From: a virus
Virus record (IMG/VR): IMGVR_UViG_3300008113_008236
Span: 1 to 34,214 of that record
Reading direction: 5' to 3' (one strand)
Length of the DNA: 34,214 nucleotides
Shown: positions 1,154 through 28,800 of the stretch, piece by piece
Layout of the letters: each line of letters opens with the position of its first letter
How positions within the stretch are numbered: position 1 is the stretch's first letter
The notes under the pieces: generated by a model
Told to the model about the DNA's origin: nothing
Databases searched by the model: none
What the model saw: only the letters and a program-made list of their open reading frames with translations
Program-made: the position numbers and the translations under genes

Positions 1154-2275
1154 TTATATTACGTAAATTTGACGAGGCATTGCTCGGAACTTCATTTGTT
1201 TATTTAAGTTCTCAGCGATTAATGCTTCTCTTTCCATTACTTTTTCAGGTCTCATTCTCGTTAACCATCCTTCGGCACCAGTAAGTTCCTCAAGTAATTT
1301 AGTTTTTTCATCTTTAGCCTCAGTTAACAAGGATTGATAATCCATGATAATTTCAGAATCAGGAGTTTTCAAGTTACCACTATACTTACCTCTAACTCTT
1401 GCTAAAGTTTCTTTGCAATAGGCTGTGAACCATCTTCTTACCCACTGTTGGCCAGGTACGTTCAAGTCTGTCCAAGTTAGTTCTTCAATAGGAACATCTG
1501 TAGGTAGTTTTATAATATCAGGATTATTTTTTAAACAATCCGCTCTGCTATCAGGTTCAACATCATAATACCAATACCAAACCGCCTTACCAACATATTG
1601 TCCGTAACTCGACCAGTTGAATCTACCACCTGGGGTATTGTATAAATGAATCATTTTTTTACCATCAGGTAAACCTGTAATTCTATAGGTTAGGGAACCA
1701 CCTAAAATTCTATTAAGGATATTTGATTCTTGTGCTCTAATTAAGTAATCGAATCCTGACATCATAAAGTAAGAACCTTGATTTCCCATTTGGGCAAATC
1801 CCGCCTCACTTGCCCCAAGACCGACACCACCAAAAGGACCTGCCATACCACCTAATCCAAGATTGTACGGACGGTCACTAAACCATAAAAGTTCGTTAAC
1901 CTCTCTACCTGCAGGAATTTCATATGTTTGGACATTCTTCTCAAGAATAAAATAATCTTTCTTTAAAACCCAAGGGCCTTCAGTTTGAAGACCAACGATT
2001 TTAGAATACGAATAACTAAACTGTTGTTCAAAATCCATGGTTCTTGTAACCAAAGCTCTTGCAACAGACCTTTCGTTCATATTTAAGTTAACAAGGTTAA
2101 CCCATTGTGAATCAATTAACCATTGTAGGATATACTCTTCGTAATCCCCAACCGCTAACTCCATTAATGAGTCCATCATTTCATCTTCAAGTTCAACACT
2201 TCTAAGTGGTGCACCCAATTGATGTTTGATTCTCGTATAAATTTTACTTCTTTCTGGTTCTGGTATAACTGCCAT
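1154..2275 (-). CDS. Putative virion structural protein (neck/connector type)
   Basis: A 373-residue protein. The N-terminus (IYTRIKHQLGAPLRSVELED, then an acidic helical stretch) resembles proteins common in contractile phages that begin with a short helical domain and sit in the structural operon. The middle carries a Gly-rich loop (LGLGGMAGPFGGVGLGASEAG, about residues 138-158). The C-terminus has a charged helical segment, ARVRGKYSGNLKTPDSEI, followed by LLTEAKDEKTKLLEEL and a MEREALIAENLNKQMKF end. No enzymatic motif is seen. The protein kind is known to me only as a myovirus structural protein; the neck assignment is inference. The gene sits 17 bases after the SOD fusion gene, and a TATTTATT element ends 3 bases before its ATG. 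Confidence 0.5.
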   Translation of the reverse strand: MAVIPEPERSKIYTRIKHQLGAPLRSVELEDEMMDSLMELAVGDYEEYILQWLIDSQWVNLVNLNMNERSVARALVTRTMDFEQQFSYSYSKIVGLQTEGPWVLKKDYFILEKNVQTYEIPAGREVNELLWFSDRPYNLGLGGMAGPFGGVGLGASEAGFAQMGNQGSYFMMSGFDYLIRAQESNILNRILGGSLTYRITGLPDGKKMIHLYNTPGGRFNWSSYGQYVGKAVWYWYYDVEPDSRADCLKNNPDIIKLPTDVPIEELTWTDLNVPGQQWVRRWFTAYCKETLARVRGKYSGNLKTPDSEIIMDYQSLLTEAKDEKTKLLEELTGAEGWLTRMRPEKVMEREALIAENLNKQMKFRAMPRQIYVI

Positions 2276-2292: not shown

Positions 2293-3831
2293 TTATTCTA
2301 TTTCGTGAATCAATGAACTCTCATTAAACACGTATTGATTATGATTTTTAATCGGTTTGTTTTCAAAAATCAAAACTTTGTTCGACTTTGTATTAATAAA
2401 TATCAACCAATCCACATCGTAAGGTTTAACATTACCTGTATCCTTCATGGTAATTTTCCCGTCCTCTTTAGTCATCGTTGAATATGGTTTAACTTGAGCG
2501 GTGTGTTTTTTACCATCTAATATAATGGTTATATCAATCCCCTTAAATGCGTCGGTCTTTTGTCCATGACCACTTGTCTTTTCAAGTTTTGCTGAATCAC
2601 CAAAATATTTCTCAATCTTTACTAAAACATCATCTTCAGACTTTTGTCCTCTATCCCATAGTTTCTTTAAAACTTTAATGATGTTAATAAACTCTTCATT
2701 ATTCTTTGTGAATATTTGAGATTTAAAATGGTCCAAAGCTTTTACCAATCTATCAATCTCTTTAATATTTCTATTTTCTTTTTTGGAAAAATCGAATTTC
2801 TTTTCAGGTCGACCAACACTATCAATTTGAGTGTTGATTGCTTTGGTTAATAAACAGAATGAATTGAAGTTTGTGTTTAAGTTATTAAGGATTGACCTTC
2901 CTTCTTTAGATTCTAACCCGTAGAACCCCGACATTTCTTTATTTGTACTATCAACCCAAAATTGACTAAACACTTGTTTTAAAACGTCAGTTACTCCGTC
3001 TTGATAAACTCTTTTGATTTTTGAATTATTGATAAGTTCTTTGTAGAATTGGACCTCTTTAGCGTCACAGAACTTTGCTTCTTTGGATTCGGTTAGAAGT
3101 TTTTCTAACTTAACGGATTCTAATAATTTGGTTTCCGTTCTCATTTCGTATAACTTGGAAACAAATTCCCAGTTTACAACTTTCCAAAAGTTAACGATGT
3201 ATTCGTCTCTTTTGTTTCTGTATTTCAAATAGTAAGCGTGTTCCCACAAATCTAATCCTAATATTGGAAACCCACCACCCTCAATTACGTTCATTAAAGG
3301 GTTATCTTGATTTGGGGTCGACATAATCTTTAATGTGTTCTTGGCTGTAAGTACTAACCATACCCACCCTGAACCGAATCTATCTTTGGCAACAGTATCA
3401 AATTCTTTCTTGAAGGTGGTGAAACTTCCAAATTGTTTTACAATCTTTTTAAGTAATTCCCCTTCTAATTTTTTAGGTGTCGGGGTTAACATATTCCAAA
3501 ATAATGCGTGGTTAAATGCCCCACCTGCGTTATTTCTTATTGTTTTATCAAAACGACTTATCGTTTTAATTATTTGTTCTAACTCTAAATCACCATACTT
3601 TTTCTTTGATAAAGCATCGTTTAATTTATCCACGTACCCTTTATAGTGTTTGTTATAGTGAAAGTTCATTGTCTCTGGGTCAATAAACTGTTTCAGGGCT
3701 GAGTAAGAATAAGGTAATTTTTCTATACCTATTTTCTTCATTTCTGTAATCAATAACTCTTTTTCTTTGGTGACGTGGTTTTCAAGTATCTGTGTTTCGA
3801 GTTGTTGAATTTGTTTTTCTATTTTTTTCAT
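2293..3831 (-). CDS. Mn-type superoxide dismutase fused to a C-terminal nuclease-like domain
   Basis: A 512-residue two-part protein. Residues about 38-228 form a complete Fe/Mn superoxide dismutase. All four metal ligands are visible: H58 in NFHYNKHYKGY, H108 in NNAGGAFNHALFW, and D194 and H198 in GLDLWEHAYY. Second-sphere H62 and Y66 are also present. Q175 in PNQDNPLM together with Gly at the FeSOD glutamine position (NNAGGAF) points to Mn-type or cambialistic metal use. SOD family members usually end soon after the WEHAYY helix, near 200 residues. Here about 285 residues follow: a charged helical region (230-410), then a mixed segment with GID433 and QVK448, which fits the D-x(n)-(E/Q)xK core of PD-(D/E)xK nucleases. 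The N-terminal 36 residues are Lys/Glu-rich and helical, with no signal peptide, so the protein is cytoplasmic or virion-borne. It lies in an operon with a helicase and a virion gene. The SOD call is firm; the nuclease call is tentative. Confidence 0.88.
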   Translation of the reverse strand: MKKIEKQIQQLETQILENHVTKEKELLITEMKKIGIEKLPYSYSALKQFIDPETMNFHYNKHYKGYVDKLNDALSKKKYGDLELEQIIKTISRFDKTIRNNAGGAFNHALFWNMLTPTPKKLEGELLKKIVKQFGSFTTFKKEFDTVAKDRFGSGWVWLVLTAKNTLKIMSTPNQDNPLMNVIEGGGFPILGLDLWEHAYYLKYRNKRDEYIVNFWKVVNWEFVSKLYEMRTETKLLESVKLEKLLTESKEAKFCDAKEVQFYKELINNSKIKRVYQDGVTDVLKQVFSQFWVDSTNKEMSGFYGLESKEGRSILNNLNTNFNSFCLLTKAINTQIDSVGRPEKKFDFSKKENRNIKEIDRLVKALDHFKSQIFTKNNEEFINIIKVLKKLWDRGQKSEDDVLVKIEKYFGDSAKLEKTSGHGQKTDAFKGIDITIILDGKKHTAQVKPYSTMTKEDGKITMKDTGNVKPYDVDWLIFINTKSNKVLIFENKPIKNHNQYVFNESSLIHEIE

Positions 3832-3837
3832 ATTTTT

Positions 3838-3864
3838 GGATTATCCATTTGTTATAAATAATCC
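3838..3864 (-). promoter_or_regulatory. Leader of the SOD fusion gene: inverted repeat plus TATTTATA element
   Basis: GGATTAT (3838-3844) and ATAATCC (3858-3864) form a perfect 7-bp inverted repeat with a 13-nt spacer. TATTTATA on the minus strand (3853-3860) overlaps one arm. The whole lies in the 42-base gap between the helicase stop and the SOD fusion start, 6 bases before the ATG. It could be an operator over a late-type promoter or a weak hairpin. There is no T-run to support a terminator. Confidence 0.35.
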
Positions 3865-3873
3865 AGATTTCAT

Positions 3874-5625
3874 TTAACGACGCATTTCTTGAATTCTCTT
3901 TAGAATTTCCTCGGCAGCGTCTGCCGTGTTTTGATTGTCCCCCATTACTGTGGCAATCACTTGTTTCTTGTTATTTAATATGTCGTAGATAATTCCTTCG
4001 ATTGTGTTTTCGAATATGGGGTAATAAACTAATACATTGTTTTTTTGACCATATCTGTAAGCTCGGTCTTCTGCTTGGGCGTGGTCTGATGGTAAGAATG
4101 AAAGGTCGTTCATAATAACTGCTTCAGCTGCGGTTAAGGTTATACCAACACCTGCAGCTTTTATATTACCGACAAACACTTTTACCTTATCGTTTTCTTG
4201 GAAGGAGTCCACGCTATGTTGTCTTTCAGGTTTGGACATTGACCCATCCACTTTAACCGCCGCTTTACCAAAGTGTTCACATATTTTATTAAGTGAGTCG
4301 GTGAAATTACAGAATATGATTACCTTCTTACCTTGCTCCACAATGTTCTCGGCAAGTTCTATTGTCTGTGAAATTTTTTCATCGGCAATAACTTGACGTA
4401 TCTTTGTTAACTTGGTGAATTGAACTGTAAGTGATTTTGACTCCTCGGGGTTCTTATCGTACCAATCGTAATACTCACCCATAATTTCTTCATACATCTT
4501 GGACTTTAATCTAAGGTATACTGGCGTGATAATCTTATCAGGTAAGTCAAGTACGTTCTCTTTAAGTCTTCTTAATGTAAGACCCGAGGTACGGTCCCTT
4601 AACTCCTCAAGGTTCGATGCTCCCATCACATTCCACACCTTTCTTCCACCAACATTAAATTGATAACCTTGGCAATATCTAATTGCATAAGCCATCCAAT
4701 TTTTGGCAACAGGGGATTCAATCAAACTTAATAGGTTGAAGTAGTCAATAGGTCGAGAGGTCATCGGAGTACCTGTCAATAACCAAAGTCGGTCCACCTT
4801 TTTAACAAGGTCGTTAATTAATTTTGTTCTTTGAGCTGTAGCATTCTTGATATAGTGTGCCTCGTCAACGACCACCAAATCAAAATTTGCATCAAGAATC
4901 TGTGACTCGCCTTTCTTTTTTGTATCATGGAAATTTTTAATAATGTCATAGTTTATAATAACAAAGTCCGCATCCGTACTGAAGTTCTTACCTTCAGCGA
5001 TATAAACTGTTTTGTCTGAATAATTTTCAATCTCTCTTTTCCAGTTAATTTTTAAAGTTGCTGGACAAATGATTAATACTTTCTTAGAACCTGATTCTAA
5101 TGCCGCAATAATCGTTGAGGTTGTTTTTCCAAGACCCATATCATCGGCAAGGATAAACTTTTTATTTTCAACTAATTTTTGAACGGCTTCTTTTTGATGT
5201 TCGAGTGGTGGACGGTGAGAATATTTGTCATAATTAATAACAACATCCTTTACAGTATTGTCTTTAATGATTGCCGCTTTTGGTAACCAAAAATCATGTA
5301 GTTGTTCTGATTCGGTTATTTTCCCCCAAATGTGAAACGCTTTTTCTTTATCGGCAAGTAACTTCTCAACCCATACCTTTTCAGGTATTTCTGTCATAAG
5401 TTTATCGTCGGCAAGTTTCTGAGCAAAATACGCATCAAGTATTACCCACTTCTTCGCAACCTTAGGTTGTTTGTCATGGTTATTTATTATGTATTCTGAT
5501 TGACTTCTCGTAGGGTAAAACCTTTTATTTATTTGTGACTTTCTTTTGAGTTCAATAATATAATTGTTCCCACCATTATAAGTCTCTAATAAGGTCATCG
5601 CCTTTGACTCTAAACTCGCATCCAT
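3874..5625 (-). CDS. SNF2/SWI2-type DNA helicase-translocase
   Basis: A 583-residue superfamily 2 helicase of the SNF2 type. The motifs are in order: motif I DDMGLGKTT (161-169), motif Ia region IICPATLKINW (185-195), motif II DEAH (254-257), motif III LLTGTPMTSRP (282-292), motif IV region KVIIFCNF (434-441), motif V region NIKAAGVGITLTAA (487-500) and motif VI QAEDRAYRYGQ (517-527). The Q/R-YGQ ending of motif VI and the GITLT block are SNF2 hallmarks. The first 140 residues are a divergent N-terminal domain. Such proteins move on duplex DNA and remodel forks or protein-DNA complexes; SMARCAL1-like fork remodelling or a UvsW-like role in recombination are the likeliest jobs. The gene starts 2 bases after the SET gene ends, so the two are probably translated from the same mRNA. 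Confidence 0.93.
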   Translation of the reverse strand: MDASLESKAMTLLETYNGGNNYIIELKRKSQINKRFYPTRSQSEYIINNHDKQPKVAKKWVILDAYFAQKLADDKLMTEIPEKVWVEKLLADKEKAFHIWGKITESEQLHDFWLPKAAIIKDNTVKDVVINYDKYSHRPPLEHQKEAVQKLVENKKFILADDMGLGKTTSTIIAALESGSKKVLIICPATLKINWKREIENYSDKTVYIAEGKNFSTDADFVIINYDIIKNFHDTKKKGESQILDANFDLVVVDEAHYIKNATAQRTKLINDLVKKVDRLWLLTGTPMTSRPIDYFNLLSLIESPVAKNWMAYAIRYCQGYQFNVGGRKVWNVMGASNLEELRDRTSGLTLRRLKENVLDLPDKIITPVYLRLKSKMYEEIMGEYYDWYDKNPEESKSLTVQFTKLTKIRQVIADEKISQTIELAENIVEQGKKVIIFCNFTDSLNKICEHFGKAAVKVDGSMSKPERQHSVDSFQENDKVKVFVGNIKAAGVGITLTAAEAVIMNDLSFLPSDHAQAEDRAYRYGQKNNVLVYYPIFENTIEGIIYDILNNKKQVIATVMGDNQNTADAAEEILKRIQEMRR

Positions 5626-5627
5626 TT

Positions 5628-5993
5628 TTAAAAAATACTTCCGTTACCGTAGTTTATGAATAATTCTTCACCTTTATTAATATCTCTTAAGGAAAAAAAT
5701 ATAAAAGTTCGGTCTTCTTCATTAGTCTTCCAATCAACACTTGGTGTCTCGGAATGATTATAATATGACCCATATCCCATAACTAATGCGTGTGTTGTCC
5801 AATTCTCAGAACGGGGATAACAAAATGTATAGTTTGTAAAAACAGGTATTGTTTCCCTCGAACTTTGAGGGAATGACAAGAAAGGACATACATCTATTAC
5901 TTCACCTTTTTTAATTTTTTGTGAAGAAAAAACCCCTAAGTTATGTAGAGGGCTATCCTTAATGTATATTTTTAACGGAGGACTGATTTTCAT
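5628..5993 (-). CDS. SET-domain protein, putative protein lysine methyltransferase
   Basis: A 121-residue minimal SET domain, counted from the ATG at 5993. The frame extends 16 residues further upstream, but that part does not look conserved and the downstream ATG gives the canonical beginning. Visible motifs are GVFSSQKIKKGEVI (20-33), YYNHSETPS (77-85) holding the Asn-His that contacts S-adenosylmethionine, and DINKGEELFINYG (104-116) with the catalytic-type Tyr115. There is no post-SET cysteine cluster. Known SET proteins of this size in bacteria and viruses are protein lysine methyltransferases. The target cannot be read from sequence; a phage or host DNA-binding protein would be reasonable. 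It is the first gene of the minus-strand operon and is divergent from the gene at 6036. Confidence 0.85.
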   Translation of the reverse strand: MKISPPLKIYIKDSPLHNLGVFSSQKIKKGEVIDVCPFLSFPQSSRETIPVFTNYTFCYPRSENWTTHALVMGYGSYYNHSETPSVDWKTNEEDRTFIFFSLRDINKGEELFINYGNGSIF

Positions 5994-6022
5994 ATTTGAT
6001 TTAAATATAGTTAATGTTTGAG

Positions 6023-6030
6023 TATTTATC
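6023..6030 (+). promoter_or_regulatory. TATTTATC late-type element
   Basis: TATTTATC ends 5 bases before the ATG at 6036, inside the 42-base divergent gap with the SET gene. Its context (GTATTTATCAATATATG) closely resembles that of the minus-strand element before the gene at 2275. Read on the other strand it is GATAAATA, about 30 bases before the SET start, so it could serve either direction. Confidence 0.4.
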
Positions 6031-6035
6031 AATAT

Positions 6036-6548
6036 ATGCAAAAATTAGTCCCAATTACAAGATTAGGTAAGTTCTTCGGAGCTGAGGATTATGCGCTCGA
6101 CATCGGTATGGGTGAGGAGTGGTTATTAGGTGATATGAACTTCACCATAGTATTGTATCGTATTGATAGGTATAAAACCAAAACTGATGACGTTTATGGT
6201 GAAGTAACTGAAGACGGTATCCAATTCATGGCACCTATTGAATTACAAGGTTTAGTTCAAGTTATGGCACCTGTTCATAAATTATTAGGTAATTCTAAAG
6301 TGGAACAACAAGAACCTGGTAATATGAAATTCTCTATTTATCAAAAGACTCTTGATGATATGGGGGTTGAGATATTCCAAGGTGACTATATTGGATATTA
6401 CGAAACAGAAGACAGAGTAAGATATTATGTGGTGTCTGATGACGGATTTGTTAAGTCAGATAATAAACACACTTATGGTGGATACAAACCTTTCTATAGA
6501 AGTGTTATTGCGACATACGTAAGTGAAAACGAATTTAGAGGAATATAA
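6036..6548 (+). CDS. Hypothetical protein, probable neck or tail structural protein
   Basis: A 170-residue protein starting MQKLVPITRLGKFF. A TTG codon at 6018 would add six residues, but it overlaps the TATTTATC element, so the ATG at 6036 is preferred. The sequence has alternating hydrophobic and polar residues (FTIVLYRID, RYYVVSDDGFV) suggesting beta structure, with the block MAPVHKLLGNSKVEQQEPG in the middle and FYRSVIATYVSENEFRG at the end. No catalytic motif, signal peptide or membrane helix is visible. It opens a run of three overlapping plus-strand genes that leads into the sheath gene, the place where T4-like phages keep neck and tail-completion proteins. The function is inferred from position only. 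Confidence 0.6.
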   Translation: MQKLVPITRLGKFFGAEDYALDIGMGEEWLLGDMNFTIVLYRIDRYKTKTDDVYGEVTEDGIQFMAPIELQGLVQVMAPVHKLLGNSKVEQQEPGNMKFSIYQKTLDDMGVEIFQGDYIGYYETEDRVRYYVVSDDGFVKSDNKHTYGGYKPFYRSVIATYVSENEFRGI

Positions 6549-11402: not shown

Positions 11403-12230
11403 ATGAGAAATAAATTAACAGAAGGATTTAAAGGTGAAGGTTCACCAGATATGAAATATTATGCATTCGATTGGGATGATAATATTGTTCATATGCCGAC
11501 AAAAATCATGGTTAAAAGTGAGGATGGTGATGAAGTAGGTATGTCAACAGATGACTTCGCAGAACACAGACATCATTTAGGTAAAGAACCTTTTGAATAT
11601 AAAGGTGAGACAATTGTAGGGTTTGCTGAGGACCCATTTAGAAATTTCAGAACTGCGGGTGATAAAGATTTCTTAATCGATGCGATGAGGGCAAAAGAAG
11701 GTCCTGCGTTTGATGATTTCAGAGAAGCTATCAATAACGGTTCGGTGTTTTCCATAATCACAGCGAGGGGTCACAATCCAAATACATTAAAACAAGCGGT
11801 TTATAATTATATTATAAATGATTATAATGGGATAAGCAAAGATGAACTTATTAAAAACCTTAAAAAATATAGGACGTTTGTAGGTGAAGATGAGATGAGT
11901 GACGAAGAATTAATTAAAACTTATTTAGAACTCAACAAGTACCATCCAGTTTCTTTCGGAGATGAGGGTGGGGCGGTTAACCCTGAAGAGGCGAAGGTCC
12001 AAGCAATGGAAGATTTTGTATCTTATATTAAAGGATTAGCTGCGGTTTTAAATAAAAGAGCGTATTTAAAGAATGATGTTAATAATAACTTTATTCCTAG
12101 TGAACCATCTATAGGCTTTTCAGATGATGACCCTAAGAACATAGAAGTAATGAAAAAACATTTTAAAGATAAACCAGATAATATAGTAAGAACATATTCT
12201 ACTGCTGGAGGACTTAAAAAGGAAGTCTAG
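11403..12230 (+). CDS. HAD-like phosphatase/hydrolase
   Basis: A 275-residue protein with the outline of a haloacid dehalogenase hydrolase. Motif I is YAFDWDDNIVH, with D23 as the likely nucleophile and D25 as the acid. Motif II is SIITARGHN, with T120. Motif IV is GFSDDDPKNIEVM, residues 238-250, supplying acidic Mg2+ ligands. The region in between holds a helical insertion (about 145-215). The family cleaves phosphate or phosphonate bonds; related viral members act as polynucleotide or nucleotide phosphatases. The substrate cannot be deduced. Its place between sheath and tube genes is unusual, because T4 has nothing there. The ATG follows the sheath terminator closely, without a Shine-Dalgarno. 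Confidence 0.75.
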   Translation: MRNKLTEGFKGEGSPDMKYYAFDWDDNIVHMPTKIMVKSEDGDEVGMSTDDFAEHRHHLGKEPFEYKGETIVGFAEDPFRNFRTAGDKDFLIDAMRAKEGPAFDDFREAINNGSVFSIITARGHNPNTLKQAVYNYIINDYNGISKDELIKNLKKYRTFVGEDEMSDEELIKTYLELNKYHPVSFGDEGGAVNPEEAKVQAMEDFVSYIKGLAAVLNKRAYLKNDVNNNFIPSEPSIGFSDDDPKNIEVMKKHFKDKPDNIVRTYSTAGGLKKEV

Positions 12231-20730: not shown

Positions 20731-21053
20731 TGGCATTTCAATATTGGAACCGATATAGTGATTTTTTAATAAACGGAGAACAGACCGTTGTTCCTTACGT
20801 GCCCATTCCTCAAAAACCAACTGACAAGGCTTACATATATAAAGTGGCTCAGAGTAGGTTAGATAAGGTATCACAAGAGTATTATAATTCACCTTACTTT
20901 AATTGGTTAATACTTCAGGCGAATCCTCAGTTCGGTGGTCTTGAAAACAATATATATGACGGTGCTATATTGATTATTCCTTTCCCATTACTACCATCTC
21001 TACAGGATTATAAAGCGGCGTTAGAAAATCATTTTTATTATTATGGTAGGTAA
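20730..21053 (+). CDS. 53: LysM-like baseplate wedge protein (T4 gp53-like)
   Basis: A 107-residue protein. The centre has YKVAQSRLDKVSQEYYNSPYFNWLILQANPQFGG followed by IYDGAILIIPFPL; in short pieces, RLDKVSQEYYNSPYFNWLIL and YDGAILIIPFP. This is the LysM-type pattern of tail proteins in which a strand-helix-helix-strand unit holds an Ile-x-x-Gly-x-x-Leu-x-Ile-Pro end. T4 gp53 and related baseplate proteins contain such a unit. Its ATG shares a base with the stop of the giant upstream gene (TAATG), and its end overlaps the next start by 11 bases, so the three are almost certainly one operon. The LysM similarity is seen directly; the gp53 equation rests on size and order. Confidence 0.7.
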   Translation: MAFQYWNRYSDFLINGEQTVVPYVPIPQKPTDKAYIYKVAQSRLDKVSQEYYNSPYFNWLILQANPQFGGLENNIYDGAILIIPFPLLPSLQDYKAALENHFYYYGR

Positions 21054-24000
21054 TTTAGGACCAGACAACAGTGGAAGAGTTTATGTAGAGTTTGATTACA
21101 ATAATCTTATTCTGGTTGACCCTAACAAAACTCAAGACGCATTAGGAAATATTAGAGAAAGATTAGTTGACCATGAAAATTTGGTTATGTATGCTAATCT
21201 TGAGGCGGAAGTATTACCAAGAACAAAATTAGCGGTTGGTATTAGTCCTGAGGATAGCGGACTGAGAACCATTTCAGTTGCTAAAATGAATTTCCTAAAA
21301 CCAAGTAAGAACAACTTTTTAGGGACAGGTTATTATGATGAGTTAACAGGACAAAACACTACAAAGTTTGACGGTACTAATCAACCTGCAGAACTTGGAC
21401 AACAAACAGCCGCGGGTTCAAAACCATATATTCTAAACACGGTAGCCAATGAATTAAATGTTATGGACAATGGGTTATTAGGTATAACTCAAATTAACAT
21501 AACAACCAATTCTTCGTTTATCCCATCTGTTGAAATGCAGTTGGAAGATGTACAAGGTAAAGCTTTGTTTCAATTAGGGAACAACTCACCATACTCAGCA
21601 TTCTTTAATTTACCATATCCGCCATTCTATCTTACCCTTAAAGGGTTTTATGGACAAGCTATTAGGTATCAATTAAATTTGGAAAAATTCCATGCAACGT
21701 TCAACTCGTTTAGTGGTAACTACCAAGTTAGATTAACATTCAAAGGATATAAGTTCAACATATTGAATGAGGTTGCTATGGGTCACCTATTAGCGGCACC
21801 ACACATGTATTCTCAAAGATTTAACTTTGGAGCAACACCCGTTACACCACAACAAAGTAATAAGTCAACTGAATCACAATCTAAAACTCAAGCGGCTATT
21901 GGTTCTAATAATCCAAATAGTAGTGATGCGGTGGTAACTGAATTAGTTACTGAAAGAGGGTATCAAAAAATAGTTGAAGTTTATAGTGAGTATAAGGCAA
22001 AAGGATTAATACCTGTTGATTTACCTGAATTAACATTAGCCCAATTAATGGTTAAGTTAGATAATTTTGAAAAACAAATTATGGACTCTTTCCCTAAAAC
22101 GGATGTGGAGTCTTTAACTAACATTAGAAACTATAAGGGAATTTTAACACAATACTTTACAAACGTTAGAGGACCTTCAAACAGTTCTTGGTTTGGAACG
22201 TATTTAAATCCACAACCACTTATTTTATTTGGTGGTGACAAAATTTACGCGTTTAAAAATATTGATGAAGGAGCTAAAGTTAGTGCGATTTCTTTATTAC
22301 AAGGAAATATTAAAAAATATAACGACGCTTTGGCGGCAAATCCTACGGTAGGGGCTGCGGGTAAAGCGCCGATACCAAACCCAATTAAATATGAGATGAT
22401 TCTGAAGGATAATATAGATGAATCACAGATTGATTGGGTTACAACTACAACTGCTCAAACAGGGTTTCCAAATCCAACAACAGAACAAATTGAAAGAGTA
22501 ATTTCACAATATGGTGGATTTACCAAAACACTAAACGAAACAGTTACTAACGGTAAAAAAAGTTATACTGAAAATAAAGAAAAGTATTTTATTTTTGAAG
22601 GAAGTGGAAGATTTGATTCAACTATCTCATCTTTAGAAACTCAAGCAAATAAAAAGTTATCTGAATATGAATCTAAAATAACGGCTGATTTATTAAAAAA
22701 GATTGAAGATAAAGACACTGGTCTTGGATTCAAACCCACGGTTAGGAATATGATTGCGGTTATTATGGCATCCGCAGAAGCTTTCATTAGATTGTTAGAT
22801 GACGTACACACCAACGCTTGGAATGTGAAGTACGACCCTGTAAGAAAGAGCGCAATTTTAGATAACCCATCATCGGCACCTAGTAGTGAAACAAGAGACA
22901 ATGTTGTTTATCGTGAAGGTTCTTTGTTGGGAAATACTGCCGCTGAGAATTCTCAGATTCCTGTTTACCCTTGGCCTCAATATTTTGTTGAAACACCTGA
23001 CGATAAGAAAGGTAGATTCCAATTAAAATATATTGGAGACCCAACTGAAATTGATAGAACACAAGGTGGTAATTATTCCAAATGGCCTGAGGTAGAATTT
23101 GTGGAAGAGTATATGAAAGGACTTACTCAAAAATTTCAAAACCCTATCGCACCACAACCATTAGATAACCAAAGAGATACAAACGTTATTAATATAAACG
23201 CAATTGAGTTTCCATCCGCGGGTATTGCATATGCCAATAAAGAAGAGGTTAAGTTTTTCTATGAAATATGGGAAAGACAATTTTTAACATCTCACTACTC
23301 GGGATTAGTTAGAGCCAATTTAAATCAGATTAATGATTTAATTAAACTTAATATTGAGACGGAGGTTAATAATGTTAAAGACGGTTTAGGAGTTAGTTCA
23401 CCATACATTACATTCAAGTTAAAAAACTACGGATTAAACGCTACTAACTACCCAACTTTTTTAAATAATATCTCAAACATGGGGACAGGTAAGTCCTATC
23501 AAGATTATATTAGGGACTTTTTTGTAACTCCATATATTAAGAGTTTAACTGAAAATTCATTCAGTATTTTAAAGACTAGTGATATTGGTAAGATACCTCA
23601 AGTAACGACATCATCAGATGCTCTTAGAGCTTTAATAACTAATGCATCTAACGAACCGTTAGTTGTTGATACGTTACCATATACCGATGCAACGTGGTGT
23701 ATTAATAATTTAAACCAAGCCCAAAGTGCTGCTGGTAACCAAGTTTACGACACTAAAAAGAGTTTAACTATTTTTGAACCAAGAAAGATTATTGCTAATT
23801 TTAACGATGTAAACAACTATAAATTTAACAGACCTGTTACAGATTTTTCATATTTACAATCAAAAAATCCAAGTATTGTAGCGGCGGCTTTAGGGTCAGG
23901 ATTGTTTCCAGGCTCAATTCCAGGGTTGTCAACGTTTTATATAACAAGAACACCTGATAATTTTGTTGCAACAGAAGGATATTGTGACGTGGTTACACCA

Positions 24001-27000
24001 ACAGGGTTCTTAGGACCAAGAACAACCACTTCAATGTTAAACACTCCTTACTTTATCAATGCGATTCAGATTGGGGTCGATAACTTTAAAAAGAAAGATA
24101 ACTATCCATACGTTCAAGCAGCTTACTTATTTCTTAATTCATTACCACTTGCAACCTTAAGAGAGAAATATAAAACTCTTTCAAATGACATTCCATCTGA
24201 TTTAGATTACATTGCGTCTACATTTAAAAAATTTGGTGCTATTCATAAAATACCGTACGCTTGGATTTTGAAATACGGTTCTATATGGCACAGATATAAG
24301 AAATACAAAGAGAGTGGAGTGGATATTCTAACAAATGTTTGGAAAGACTTTAACTACACAACAAACTATGACCCAATAACCAATCAAACAACAAAACCAT
24401 ATAATTTCAAGTACAATGATATAGATAGGACTGTTGTTTTACAAAGCGAGACTAACGATAACGTTAATATGGAGGTAGGATTTTACCCCAAGTTAATTAA
24501 CGACTTTAACGTGTTTTATAATGGTTATGATTTATATAGTGGATATACAAATACCGAGATTCAAGACAGTGTGAAAGGTGGTATGAAAATGTACGACTTC
24601 CTTGAATCAAACATTTCTGCAAAACAAGGTGATAAACAATTAAGGTTAATTACTTGGTCTGTATTATTACCCGATTTAACTCCAGAGGCGGACGTTGATT
24701 GTAATCCTAAAGATAATACAAAAAGTCCTCAGTACTTTGTTGTACCATCTTTTGGGTCATTTTTTAACCAAACGGTAGGTTCTTGTTTAACAGGAGCAAC
24801 AACATCACCTGGAACTAAAGTACCACTTAGTTCAAATAGTAGTGTATATAATGGTTCTGTAAGATGTTTATGGTCGGCTCCAAACTACGGATATTTCGAT
24901 AGTACACAAATTGCTTATCCAAGCCCTGAATCTTATTTAACTTTAATTAATACGGGTAAAACTCAAAGTCCCGTTCATTTTTTAAATACTAATGTTTATT
25001 CCAAGATTGAAGAGACATTCTCTGTATTTGAAAAAAGAATATTAGATAACTTTGAACAAGAATTTTTAAATTTCTGTAAACCAATTACTGATAATCAAAA
25101 TAGTAATGAAACGGTAACTTATGGACAAAGTCCTGTTAATAACACAAGTAACTTTAGAAACTTCCAATCATTATTTAAGACTTTGATGATAGTACCTGCA
25201 CAGGCCAAAGACGTTATTGATAAAACTTATTTTGAAACTACAATCGATAAACAATATCAATCATTCCAAACAGGGATTCAATCCTTTATGGAATATGATA
25301 TCTTATTAAGATACGGAAATCCTTCAAATTATAATAGAAGGATTTTTGATTCTTATATTTCTTTTAATGGACCCGCGGTTGTTACAGACCCAATAACTTT
25401 TAATCCATATGTGAAAGGTAGTTTACCAACTATTGGGGGAGGAGTTACGTTAACTCAATCTAAATTAGCAAATCCAAAGGCGTGGTTCGCTTTAGAAACG
25501 GAGGTAGGATTCTCAACAATACCAAATGTTGTATATACTTCAAATGGTTCATACATTACTGATTTCTTTGTAGATAACAATATTGAATTTACTGAACAGA
25601 ATGTTGTTTTGTTGGCACAAATCATTAAGATGTATGCAACACAAAAAGTTAAACAACCAACAATTACTGTTTCACAATTTAAGAACCAAATAATACAATA
25701 CCTTGGAGTTGAAACTGAGTTGCAGAACAATTTCCTAAACGGGGTTTTAACGGGGTTAAATAAAGCACTTCCATCACAACAACAAGTACCTCAACAAACA
25801 ATTCAAAGTTCGATAACGGGAGAGCAAAGTAAGGTTGAAAACTATGAAGTCTTTAAAGCGTTAAACGATAAGTGGATTGCGGGAGGAGACTATACCAACA
25901 AAACTTTGTTTGAAGACATAATGTTTTTAGACCGAGCGTCAAGAAATATCGGAGACACAATATTGATTGATATCTTTGACTTAAAAAGTATGTTTAATGA
26001 AAAGTCATTGAATCAAGCAATGAGTGTTTACACGTTCATTAGTGGTATTCTTATTAAGAATAACTTTAATGTGATGAACTTACCAGCCTATGTTAATTTT
26101 TATAATGTACAAGATGTTGATGGTACAACAATACCAAAGGCAGAAGGTTCATTAGACTTTGCCGACAGTTTATGGGGGACTTATTTAGATGTTGATTACA
26201 GAAAATCAGGGCCCAAAATGGTTTGTTTTTATGCTGGCAAACCATCTCAATATTTAGACTTACCAAAAGGTAATTTTAAATTTAGAGACGATGCGTTTGA
26301 AATGAGAAGAGCGTCTGAAAATCCTCTATTGGAAAACCAACAGGGTAAAAAAGATTGGGCGGTTTCTAACAAATGTGTTGGATTTACTGTAGACCTTGGT
26401 ATTAGAAGTCAAAATGTTTTCTTTTCATTCTCGGTATCTCAGGACAATGGTACTGCAACATCTGAGTCAATTAATACTCAGTTGAATATGGTTGACCAAG
26501 CATCAGGTAGACAAACCGCCACACAAAATAATAGTTTATATAACCTATATAAACAAAGAAGTTATAAATGTACGGTTGTATCATTAGGTAACGCTTTAAT
26601 ACAGCCAACAATGTATTTCAACCTTAGACACGTACCAATGTTTAATGGACCGTATATGATTCAGGATGTTCAACATTCAATTCAAGCGGGTAACTTCCAA
26701 ACAACATTTACGGGTGTTAGACAAGGGGTATTTGATTTACCTGCCATAGACAGTTTCTTACAGAGTATTAACCAAAACCTTATAACTAAATTAGAAGAAC
26801 TTCTTAAAGTTAATAAGGATAGTGTTACAGTTTCAGGAACTACCAATACGGTTAAGAGTACAACACTACCTCAAAAGGCTGACAATACTCTTGATACACC
26901 AAATGCGTGTAAGAGTAATGTACTTAAAACTTTTGCGGATGCTGGATTTGGAGACGGGGTTGCGGCAACCTTAACTGAATTTACACCAAAACAACTTGCC

Positions 27001-28800
27001 GACACATTACTTACTGAAATCCCTAACAATAAAGAATTACAAATAATCATATATTGTTTATCGTATATGAGAAGTTTCCAAAAAAGTTCTACAAGTGGAT
27101 TAGGGGCGTTTAATAGTTGGAATAATAACTTGGCAACCATTTCATTAAATACGGATTGGGGTGGTCTTAACTCTACTTTGGAAAAGAGATACAGTTGTGT
27201 TAAATCTAAATCAAACGCATCAACATCACAGTCTTTACCAATAGTTCATTTTACAACTATTGGGAACTACGTGAGATTTATGTCAAATAGATTAAGAGAA
27301 AGAGTACCTCAAATATTGGAAATTGGTTTGGCCAAATACTATGTTTGTTATTGGCCAGACTCTAATATATCTTCAGAATATTATGATTCTCACACATCAG
27401 AATTTAAACAAACTAAGGATACTTTATATGAAGCAATAAATTCGGCGGTTAAAGTTGGACTATCAAGTCTTGATAACTCAAAAGACTTAAAGGCGACCAT
27501 TAAAGTAACTGAAATCAAAGGAACAAGTGGAACATCAGGAACAAGTGGAACATCAGGAACTAGCGGTACATCAGGAACAAGTGGAACATCGGCATTAGAT
27601 TTAACTTGTCCACCACCAGCGCTTAAATCATTTACACCAACTGCGGGTTATACAGGTACTATTGTACAAGTTAATGGTAGTAACTTGGCAACAGCTAGCG
27701 AGGTTAAAGTTGTGGGAGTTGTGGTACCTAAGAAAGATGTTACTGTGTTTAGTGATAGTATGTTACGTTTCATAGTACCTAAAGTATTCACAGGTGAAGT
27801 TAATCTTAATGGAAGAATTGAGGTTAAAACTGACCATGGTTCATTTACAGGGTCTACGTTATTCAATTATAACCCTGCGTTAAATGGTATTGCTAGTCTA
27901 ACTCCAGGAGGTGCGTTTAGTGAGGATAACACAGGTACTACCACTCCAACTACAACTGCAACTGTAAATCAAGAGACAGTAAATTCTAATCCGCAAACAA
28001 CAGGACCGAATCCGTTGGTTGTTGCAACAAATACTAAAAATCCAAATGGAGGTAATGAGTTATTGGTTATTAAAGTTAATACCGACCCTACTTTAGGTGT
28101 ATGGAAGATAGAACCTGAAGCTAAATATAATTATATTATAAACGTGGTTGAAGTGGGTCCAAATAATACAATAACAACTTCAGAGGTAACTAAAGGTGAA
28201 TACGAAACTTTAGAAGGGTTTGTTTCTCAAGACGGTCAAACGTTTTCAATTAATAGACAACAATTTATTGATAGTGTTTCACAATTTAAGAGAGAAATTA
28301 TCGATAATTCTGGAAAAGAGATTAGAATAGACACTCAAATTAATGTAATGGCGATACCAGCGGACCAAGAAAAGTATCCAAAAAATACTGAGACGTTTTC
28401 TAATTTTGAAATTGTAGTACCTAAATCATTATCAAAAACGTTTCCCCCAAAACAATTATCGATAACATTGGCGGATGAAGAACCAACTATACAAGGTAAT
28501 GGGCCACAATTTTATAATATTAAAAAACCTAATGGGGAATATATTACTTTTAAATTTAACACAGAAGACCCATTTAATTCACAGTGGGTTGGAAGTACAA
28601 AGTTTGTAAAGAACGGTAGTACGGTACCATTAGCGTCAGGATGTGTTAGTGGTTCAGATACAAGATATACTCAATCATGCACTGTGAGTGAATTAGGAGT
28701 TATTAGATTAGTTATTGAATATTACCCTTATGGGTTTACATCACCAATTGGTGGGGAGGTTTTAAAACAGACGGTTATGAGTTCTCCTTTCACTTTATAA
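21043..28800 (+). CDS. Giant baseplate hub protein with Gly-Thr-Ser linker and IPT/TIG domain
   Basis: A 2585-residue protein, among the largest here. Residues 140-260 (LEDVQGKALFQLGNNSPYSA, FNLPYPPFYLTLKGFYGQAI) are a conserved baseplate block. Residues about 1840-1905 (YKCTVVSLGNALIQPTMYFN, GPYMIQDVQHSIQAG, LPAIDSFLQSI) resemble hub proteins at the base of contractile tails. A globular part follows (about 1955-2155) with the WGG and YVCYWP patches; I do not recognise it, and a wall-degrading role is possible but unproven. Then come eight Gly-Thr-Ser units (2160-2183) and an IPT/TIG beta domain (2190-2276: SFTPTAGYTGTIVQVNGSNL), as used for surface binding. The last 300 residues are beta-rich. 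The protein likely forms the hub and carries a flexible tip. Confidence 0.65.
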   Translation: MVGNLGPDNSGRVYVEFDYNNLILVDPNKTQDALGNIRERLVDHENLVMYANLEAEVLPRTKLAVGISPEDSGLRTISVAKMNFLKPSKNNFLGTGYYDELTGQNTTKFDGTNQPAELGQQTAAGSKPYILNTVANELNVMDNGLLGITQINITTNSSFIPSVEMQLEDVQGKALFQLGNNSPYSAFFNLPYPPFYLTLKGFYGQAIRYQLNLEKFHATFNSFSGNYQVRLTFKGYKFNILNEVAMGHLLAAPHMYSQRFNFGATPVTPQQSNKSTESQSKTQAAIGSNNPNSSDAVVTELVTERGYQKIVEVYSEYKAKGLIPVDLPELTLAQLMVKLDNFEKQIMDSFPKTDVESLTNIRNYKGILTQYFTNVRGPSNSSWFGTYLNPQPLILFGGDKIYAFKNIDEGAKVSAISLLQGNIKKYNDALAANPTVGAAGKAPIPNPIKYEMILKDNIDESQIDWVTTTTAQTGFPNPTTEQIERVISQYGGFTKTLNETVTNGKKSYTENKEKYFIFEGSGRFDSTISSLETQANKKLSEYESKITADLLKKIEDKDTGLGFKPTVRNMIAVIMASAEAFIRLLDDVHTNAWNVKYDPVRKSAILDNPSSAPSSETRDNVVYREGSLLGNTAAENSQIPVYPWPQYFVETPDDKKGRFQLKYIGDPTEIDRTQGGNYSKWPEVEFVEEYMKGLTQKFQNPIAPQPLDNQRDTNVININAIEFPSAGIAYANKEEVKFFYEIWERQFLTSHYSGLVRANLNQINDLIKLNIETEVNNVKDGLGVSSPYITFKLKNYGLNATNYPTFLNNISNMGTGKSYQDYIRDFFVTPYIKSLTENSFSILKTSDIGKIPQVTTSSDALRALITNASNEPLVVDTLPYTDATWCINNLNQAQSAAGNQVYDTKKSLTIFEPRKIIANFNDVNNYKFNRPVTDFSYLQSKNPSIVAAALGSGLFPGSIPGLSTFYITRTPDNFVATEGYCDVVTPTGFLGPRTTTSMLNTPYFINAIQIGVDNFKKKDNYPYVQAAYLFLNSLPLATLREKYKTLSNDIPSDLDYIASTFKKFGAIHKIPYAWILKYGSIWHRYKKYKESGVDILTNVWKDFNYTTNYDPITNQTTKPYNFKYNDIDRTVVLQSETNDNVNMEVGFYPKLINDFNVFYNGYDLYSGYTNTEIQDSVKGGMKMYDFLESNISAKQGDKQLRLITWSVLLPDLTPEADVDCNPKDNTKSPQYFVVPSFGSFFNQTVGSCLTGATTSPGTKVPLSSNSSVYNGSVRCLWSAPNYGYFDSTQIAYPSPESYLTLINTGKTQSPVHFLNTNVYSKIEETFSVFEKRILDNFEQEFLNFCKPITDNQNSNETVTYGQSPVNNTSNFRNFQSLFKTLMIVPAQAKDVIDKTYFETTIDKQYQSFQTGIQSFMEYDILLRYGNPSNYNRRIFDSYISFNGPAVVTDPITFNPYVKGSLPTIGGGVTLTQSKLANPKAWFALETEVGFSTIPNVVYTSNGSYITDFFVDNNIEFTEQNVVLLAQIIKMYATQKVKQPTITVSQFKNQIIQYLGVETELQNNFLNGVLTGLNKALPSQQQVPQQTIQSSITGEQSKVENYEVFKALNDKWIAGGDYTNKTLFEDIMFLDRASRNIGDTILIDIFDLKSMFNEKSLNQAMSVYTFISGILIKNNFNVMNLPAYVNFYNVQDVDGTTIPKAEGSLDFADSLWGTYLDVDYRKSGPKMVCFYAGKPSQYLDLPKGNFKFRDDAFEMRRASENPLLENQQGKKDWAVSNKCVGFTVDLGIRSQNVFFSFSVSQDNGTATSESINTQLNMVDQASGRQTATQNNSLYNLYKQRSYKCTVVSLGNALIQPTMYFNLRHVPMFNGPYMIQDVQHSIQAGNFQTTFTGVRQGVFDLPAIDSFLQSINQNLITKLEELLKVNKDSVTVSGTTNTVKSTTLPQKADNTLDTPNACKSNVLKTFADAGFGDGVAATLTEFTPKQLADTLLTEIPNNKELQIIIYCLSYMRSFQKSSTSGLGAFNSWNNNLATISLNTDWGGLNSTLEKRYSCVKSKSNASTSQSLPIVHFTTIGNYVRFMSNRLRERVPQILEIGLAKYYVCYWPDSNISSEYYDSHTSEFKQTKDTLYEAINSAVKVGLSSLDNSKDLKATIKVTEIKGTSGTSGTSGTSGTSGTSGTSGTSALDLTCPPPALKSFTPTAGYTGTIVQVNGSNLATASEVKVVGVVVPKKDVTVFSDSMLRFIVPKVFTGEVNLNGRIEVKTDHGSFTGSTLFNYNPALNGIASLTPGGAFSEDNTGTTTPTTTATVNQETVNSNPQTTGPNPLVVATNTKNPNGGNELLVIKVNTDPTLGVWKIEPEAKYNYIINVVEVGPNNTITTSEVTKGEYETLEGFVSQDGQTFSINRQQFIDSVSQFKREIIDNSGKEIRIDTQINVMAIPADQEKYPKNTETFSNFEIVVPKSLSKTFPPKQLSITLADEEPTIQGNGPQFYNIKKPNGEYITFKFNTEDPFNSQWVGSTKFVKNGSTVPLASGCVSGSDTRYTQSCTVSELGVIRLVIEYYPYGFTSPIGGEVLKQTVMSSPFTL
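27520..27591 (+). repeat. 72-bp repeat encoding eight Gly-Thr-Ser units
   Basis: Eight 9-bp units encode GTS eight times. The Ser codon mostly alternates between AGT and TCA, making a higher-order 18-bp repeat GGAACAAGTGGAACATCA. Units 5 and 6 have changed third bases (ACT AGC, GGT). The repeat joins two folded parts of the giant hub protein and acts as a flexible or collagen-like Gly-X-Y spacer. Length is expected to vary between strains through slippage. Confidence 0.92.

Follow-up and report, generated by a model that had tools for sequence, protein, structure and literature searches.

A superoxide dismutase-nuclease fusion protein with an exchangeable nuclease module in T4-like lake phages

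The fusion gene and its genomic context

The window analyzed here (34,214 nucleotides, positions 1 to 34,214 of IMG/VR record IMGVR_UViG_3300008113_008236) is a fragment of a T4-like phage genome and contains genes for sheath, tube and neck proteins, DNA polymerase, a UvsX-like protein, SSB, an RNase H-like protein, and a helicase (names assigned by eye, except for the neck and SNF2 genes). This gene content agrees with the phage origin proposed in a preliminary description of the sequence. Distant relatives of the neck protein were found in Flavobacterium, Microcystis, and Stenotrophomonas phages. The open reading frame and its translation confirm the coordinates 2293-3831 for the gene of interest and place it on the minus strand, a detail that had escaped the preliminary description, as had the LxE motifs at the domain borders, the nuclease alleles, the SOD-only allele, and the stand-alone megaphage nuclease described below. 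The 512-aa product consists of a 30-aa leader, an Mn-type superoxide dismutase (SOD) domain (residues 31-238), and a C-terminal nuclease domain (residues 249-512). The features of the locus are listed below, a slash marking each proposed cut.

5628..6041 (-): SET-domain protein gene, upstream of the SNF2 helicase gene (PF00856, 1.5e-16)
3874..5625 (-): SNF2-type helicase, upstream gene (PF00176, 3.5e-29; immediately next to the fusion gene in 67 of 71 loci)
2293..3831 (-): SOD-nuclease fusion gene, 512 aa (open reading frame and translation; same architecture in 123 distinct viral proteins)
3742..3831 (-): helical leader, residues 1-30, ending L27-[IL]-[TNQSK]-E30, a proposed head-targeting propeptide ([LI]xE at E30 in 123 of 123; kept in the SOD-only allele as ILSE/MKKI)
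3118..3741 (-): Mn-type superoxide dismutase domain, residues 31-238, 208 aa (PF00081 and PF02777; best solved relatives are MnSODs, E 1e-58; active-site residues invariant)
3118..3126 (-): proposed prohead-protease site 1, LLE/S, residues 236-238, inherited with the SOD ([LI]xE in 123 of 123; swap breakpoint just downstream)
3088..3096 (-): proposed prohead-protease site 2, LTE/S, residues 246-248, inherited with the nuclease cassette ([LI]xE in 114 of 123; 8 others have M or V at P3)
2296..3087 (-): exchangeable nuclease module, residues 249-512, helical at about 254-380 and with the PD-(D/E)xK core at about 381-512 (AlphaFold model, Foldseek matches, allele swap)
2488..2637 (-): predicted catalytic residues E399, D433, and Q446-V-K448, also D427 (invariant in 123 fusions; conserved in the megaphage homologue)
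1154..2275 (-): neck or head-tail adaptor gene (gp13-like), next downstream, at the downstream edge of the swapped cassette (phrog_211, 4.7e-10; synteny; identity recovery)

The neighbors named in the preliminary description, an SNF2 helicase and a virion gene, are thus both present, and the order SNF2 - fusion - neck gene is kept in 67 of 71 loci. The T4 late-promoter motif TATAAATA was no commoner than expected by chance in the window, where no late promoter could be recognized; one exact copy, on the strand opposite to the fusion gene, occupies 3853-3860 in the short space just before that gene. The only GenBank phage match found in a search with the SET protein is in LR756501/LR756503 (39% identity), where it adjoins a stand-alone nuclease of a 735-kb phage (see below). 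The SET gene differs widely (35-100% identity) between otherwise similar contigs, one of which (L153) carries it at 5518-5916 (-); no clear coupling of SET allele to nuclease type was found, SET identity being 35-100% within type T0. Elsewhere in the window, 21043-28800 (+) encodes a 2585-aa protein with a tandem GTS repeat followed by an IPT/TIG-like stretch, as judged by eye.

At least 592 related stretches were found in IMG/VR. Among the best 80 of these, the fusion was full-length throughout, with 78 loci spanning residues 1-512 and two spanning residues 9-512. Several searches of viral contigs yielded 123 distinct complete fusions of 507-513 aa and one SOD-only allele. In loci anchored on the neck gene (gp13), the fusion was present in 72 of 73. 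The dN/dS ratio was far below 1 in the SOD half as well as in the nuclease half, indicating strong purifying selection on each. The gene is not an assembly join, given 123 distinct complete examples from viral contigs, and the comparison shows that the fusion is real, as the preliminary description had supposed, far from a chance product, and common in T4-like lake phages. Nothing but the unusual architecture speaks for an artefact of assembly or recombination joining two genes; the recurrence of full-length fusions across many samples, with conserved length and synteny, makes its probability practically negligible. No match spanning 80% of the fusion was found in GenBank phages, and no publication on a SOD-nuclease fusion was found in the literature searched.

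Two predicted enzymes in one chain

Both Pfam domains of the Fe/Mn SOD family were detected: Sod_Fe_N (PF00081) at residues 36-115 (4e-22, 78.9 bits, cut-off 27) and Sod_Fe_C (PF02777) at residues 123-226 (6.6e-40, 135.7 bits, cut-off 20.9). The metal ligands H58, H108, D194, and H198 and the outer-sphere Q175 are invariant in the 123 fusions, as are H62, Y66, W158, E197, and Y201. Together with the MnSODs found as solved relatives, this bears out the earlier assignment of an intact Mn-type SOD. The nearest cellular SODs are about 50% (46-55%) identical and mostly from Bacteroidota, which hints at a Bacteroidota host for the phage; all 80 of those checked are unfused. The full-length AlphaFold model, in which the SOD part was poorly modeled because of the shallow alignment, was set aside, and the C-terminal model alone was used.

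No family was found for the residues after about 230 in Pfam, NCBIfam, or PHROGs, and a sequence-only profile search of the nuclease domain against PDB gave no significant match. The AlphaFold model of residues 250-512 (mean pLDDT 82.8) was informative. In a Foldseek search of PDB, its first match was the homing endonuclease I-Ssp6803I (E 1.3e-3, probability 1.0), followed by the nuclease subunit of SPARDA and by Hjc resolvases, with probabilities near 1.0 throughout (1.0 for Hjc). Among viral models (BFVD), several matches were below 1e-3; the best (5e-17) was to a protein of 501 aa from an uncultured phage, which bears the name superoxide dismutase. TM scores were only moderate. The core fold of the PD-(D/E)xK superfamily and its catalytic E ... 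D ... (D/E/Q)xK pattern are both found in the domain, and E399, D427, D433, Q446, and K448 are invariant in the 123 fusions. The preliminary description had read a PD-(D/E)xK core from GID433 and QVK448 and proposed a structure prediction of the C-terminal part as a check; the predicted fold contains that core. The model and the residue conservation thus strongly support a PD-(D/E)xK-type nuclease, for which metal-dependent DNA cleavage is predicted, and the sequence shows intact active sites in both domains.

A stand-alone nuclease of 290 aa, encoded by the 735-kb phage LR756501, is 25-29% identical (28% over the whole C-terminal domain) and retains the E, D, and QxK catalytic residues; it starts at the position expected for the start of a cut nuclease. 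No Fe/Mn SOD was found in the records with a stand-alone nuclease (LR756501 and contig 3300042261_000981). The nuclease domain did not turn up in the bacterial and archaeal genomes scanned, and no viral contigs were matched with the megaphage nuclease alone as the query. In BFVD, a 1113-aa uncultured marine phage protein, A0A8D9CCA0, has the same nuclease domain (Foldseek 1.4e-14) and about 800 further residues, representing another carrier for the nuclease module.

Nuclease exchange and conserved border motifs

At 50% identity the 123 nucleases fall into clusters of 76, 39, 7, and 1, all of them homologous. In the neck-anchored loci, the other nuclease types are 30-39% identical to that of the window, with SODs that are 82-99% identical; SODs up to 98.5% identical accompany nucleases that are just 34% identical. 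Between the window and a related contig (L392), DNA identity is about 0.90 in the SNF2 and SOD regions, 0.44 in the linker, and near 0.55 in the nuclease, returning to mostly 0.85-0.98 in the neck gene. Identity drops just past residue 241 and is restored from the neck gene on; the breakpoint lies just 3' of the KLLES codons, between sites 1 and 2, in three independent pairs. On the SOD tree, a quick tree with some long branches, at least 16 changes of nuclease type are required, against a possible minimum of 4, and its well-supported branches alone force 7 changes for type T1. The flanking genes, compared across nuclease types, showed no difference by type. These comparisons argue strongly that the nuclease is a cassette exchanged between phages by recombination at the SOD/nuclease border.

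One allele (contig L406) encodes only the SOD, whose C-terminus, ...MKTKTDL, falls precisely at the expected start of site 1; the leader site is kept. The place of the nuclease is filled there by a cytidylyltransferase-like gene, whose PF01467 match is weak and below the curated cut-off; by eye, the frame resembles heptose-phosphate adenylyltransferase. The leader of this SOD-only allele (L406:3657-4971) is longer and has the further LxE motifs TISET, RLLES, and ILSEM.

The domain borders coincide with a conserved motif. The T4 protease gp21 cleaves its substrates behind an L/I-x-E motif; Alt and the internal proteins of T4 undergo packaging, trimming, and injection (PMC9026906). Among 70 fusions, [LI]xE was conserved at 95% or more at just 3 of 512 positions, E30, E238, and E248, which flank the SOD and start the nuclease. 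In the full set of 123, it occurs at E30 in 123, at E238 in 123, and at E248 in 114. Of the exceptions at site 2, eight have M or V at P3 and a single fusion (L405) truly lacks the site; in some sequences the E is shifted by one position, an LxE or VIE motif still being there. The linker around these sites is among the most variable stretches of the protein. A conserved LxE followed by a small residue was found twice in the fusion (both in the linker), once in SNF2, and not at all in the neck, sheath, or h328 proteins. Since the swap point falls between site 1 (upstream) and site 2 (downstream), each nuclease cassette appears to bring its own LxE.

A protease of the gp21 type (PF03420) is encoded in 8 of 10 related contigs, and the capsid protein of the relatives has SFLINE/ASS aligned with SFLTE/AEIGG of T4 gp23, an alignment that suggests cleavage at that point. 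An L/I-x-E motif closing an N-terminal propeptide, as in Alt and the internal proteins, is present at E30 in all fusions, which is consistent with cleavage but is not proof of it. The leader, used as a query against 6 related contigs, retrieved this protein alone, besides one weak match (E 0.08); a leader common to other proteins was thus not found in these contigs. The evidence, circumstantial but coherent, suggests that the LxE motifs at the borders are gp21-type cut sites. Elsewhere in the window, 11403-12230 (+) encodes an FDWDDN-motif protein, HAD-like by eye, that starts MRNKLTEGF. Its relatives have [LIFV]xE-GF near the start, with F often at P3, less clean than in the fusion; going by this motif, it is possibly another head-targeted enzyme.

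A packaged precursor, its alternatives, and known systems

The best explanation appears to be a head-packaged, protease-processed protein that, in the manner of T4 Alt and the internal proteins, delivers two enzymes, of which the SOD is constant and the nuclease variable; judged from sequence and analogy, its chances are about even. The leader would steer the chain into the prohead core, where a gp21-type phage protease would cut after E30, E238, and E248, yielding a SOD of normal length (residues 31-238, 208 aa) and a nuclease (residues 249-512). Both would be retained in the head and delivered into the host together with the DNA. From the chemistry of its family, the SOD would clear superoxide at entry and in the early stage of infection. 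The nuclease might attack host, competitor, or satellite DNA, or counter a defence, and swapping of its allele beside a constant SOD could then be accounted for by an arms race. At least 10 internal proteins have been reported in T-even phages, three of which block different restriction-enzyme subtypes (PMC12373910), and their variability resembles the rapid exchange of the nuclease in the fusion. Several points weigh against packaging: LxE is short, and one conserved LxE-G occurs by chance in the neighboring helicase; Met at P1' of the first site (after E30) is unusual; the fusion of L405 is without site 2; cleavage of the phage's own capsid protein is deduced from its alignment with T4; no late promoter was recognized; and products of 24-30 kDa must pass the portal, although T4 Alt is even larger. 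Packaging into the head and cleavage of the fusion thus seem about equally probable to be right or wrong, and the fuller version, a modular injected-effector system in which the maturation protease splits a packaged precursor into an antioxidant enzyme and a nuclease, both injected, with the nuclease swapped between phages as a cassette on a SOD carrier, falls a little short of that.

Alternatively, the protein could stay uncut in the cytosol as a bifunctional enzyme, with two nuclease domains joined through the SOD dimer and a structural function for the conserved LxE residues; its role would be late in infection, in recombination, trimming, or breakdown of host DNA, with DNA ends shielded from superoxide. 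The near-universal retention of the fusion in gp13-anchored loci, the invariance of the dimer-interface residues E197 and Y201, and the adjoining SNF2 helicase gene would fit such an enzyme, as would the fact that PD-(D/E)xK enzymes often act as dimers. However, the LxE positions alone are held in an otherwise highly variable linker and are maintained across nuclease types with 30-39% identity, and each part works alone, as the SOD-only allele and the stand-alone nuclease demonstrate; we regard this possibility as unlikely, though still appreciable. The suggestion in the preliminary description of a redox- or metal-gated nuclease, its cutting controlled by SOD activity or state, draws on the presence of two metal-binding domains in one chain. 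It is very improbable: at least four nuclease types work with the same SOD, the SOD also occurs alone and the nuclease also occurs in a phage without SOD, and no conserved coupling element was found. Exchange of the nuclease next to a persisting SOD shows the two parts to follow separate evolutionary paths, and gating is left unsupported.

Acquisition of a homing-type endonuclease by the 3' end of sod, with the cassette spreading and being replaced through cutting of alleles without it, would account for I-Ssp6803I as the best solved fold match, for cassette exchange with sharp edges, and for the existence of a nuclease-less allele. Homing genes, however, usually show empty sites and decay, whereas only a single nuclease-less allele was seen, with another gene in place there, and the nuclease, under purifying selection, keeps its catalytic residues in all 123 fusions. 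Moreover, homing leaves the LxE sites unexplained, and the other nuclease types, being homologous and located at one and the same site, do not represent independent insertions. Capture by homing is therefore improbable as the sole explanation, but it is compatible with the packaged precursor, to which a homing-like drive may be an alternative or an addition; in phages, nuclease genes are known to lie where genetic exchange has its edges (PMC10448857).

The usual interpretation of phage SOD genes is that they aid host metabolism. In the present locus, which many aquatic T4-like phages retain, the SOD appears to stay constant and to carry a DNA-cutting module that is rapidly exchanged. Should the cut sites be real, a packaged antioxidant enzyme would be delivered with the DNA, and it would become testable whether superoxide, met as the DNA enters, is an obstacle that phages have to disarm. 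The swappable nuclease offers a natural allele series for finding the nuclease target.

The SOD part shares all ligands and second-sphere residues with the Mn type of the Fe/Mn SOD family, to which the fusion adds a 30-aa leader and a nuclease. A phage-borne Fe/Mn SOD is also known from freshwater phages and PA5oct-like jumbo phages, where, unlike in the fusion, it is a separate gene in annotated GenBank records; defence against reactive oxygen species has been proposed for freshwater phage SODs (PMC6802176). With I-Ssp6803I, the SPARDA subunit, and archaeal Hjc, the nuclease shares the E399 helix followed by beta strands with D433 and Q446-x-K448; it differs from known PD-(D/E)xK nucleases in a large extra helical part and in belonging to no Pfam or NCBIfam family. 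The best BFVD match, A0A6J5L953 (uncultured Caudovirales, 501 aa), is 29% identical over the C-terminal domain and, by its name and model match, is apparently another fusion already in the databases, annotated just as SOD. The nucleases of LR756501 and contig 3300042261_000981 are 28% identical over the whole C-terminal domain and share all catalytic residues, but are without SOD, leader, or LxE border sites; a SET-domain gene adjoins the nuclease in LR756501, and SET is also found upstream of the fusion. The closest parallel is with T4 Alt and IPI-IPIII, which the fusion resembles in the proposed L/I-x-E end of the leader, the gp21-type protease, and the combination of a variable effector with a conserved packaging part. 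It differs from them in having two enzymes per chain, internal sites, a constant SOD and a variable nuclease, in a leader of about 30 aa with no apparent similarity to T4 targeting sequences, and in that we infer its packaging.
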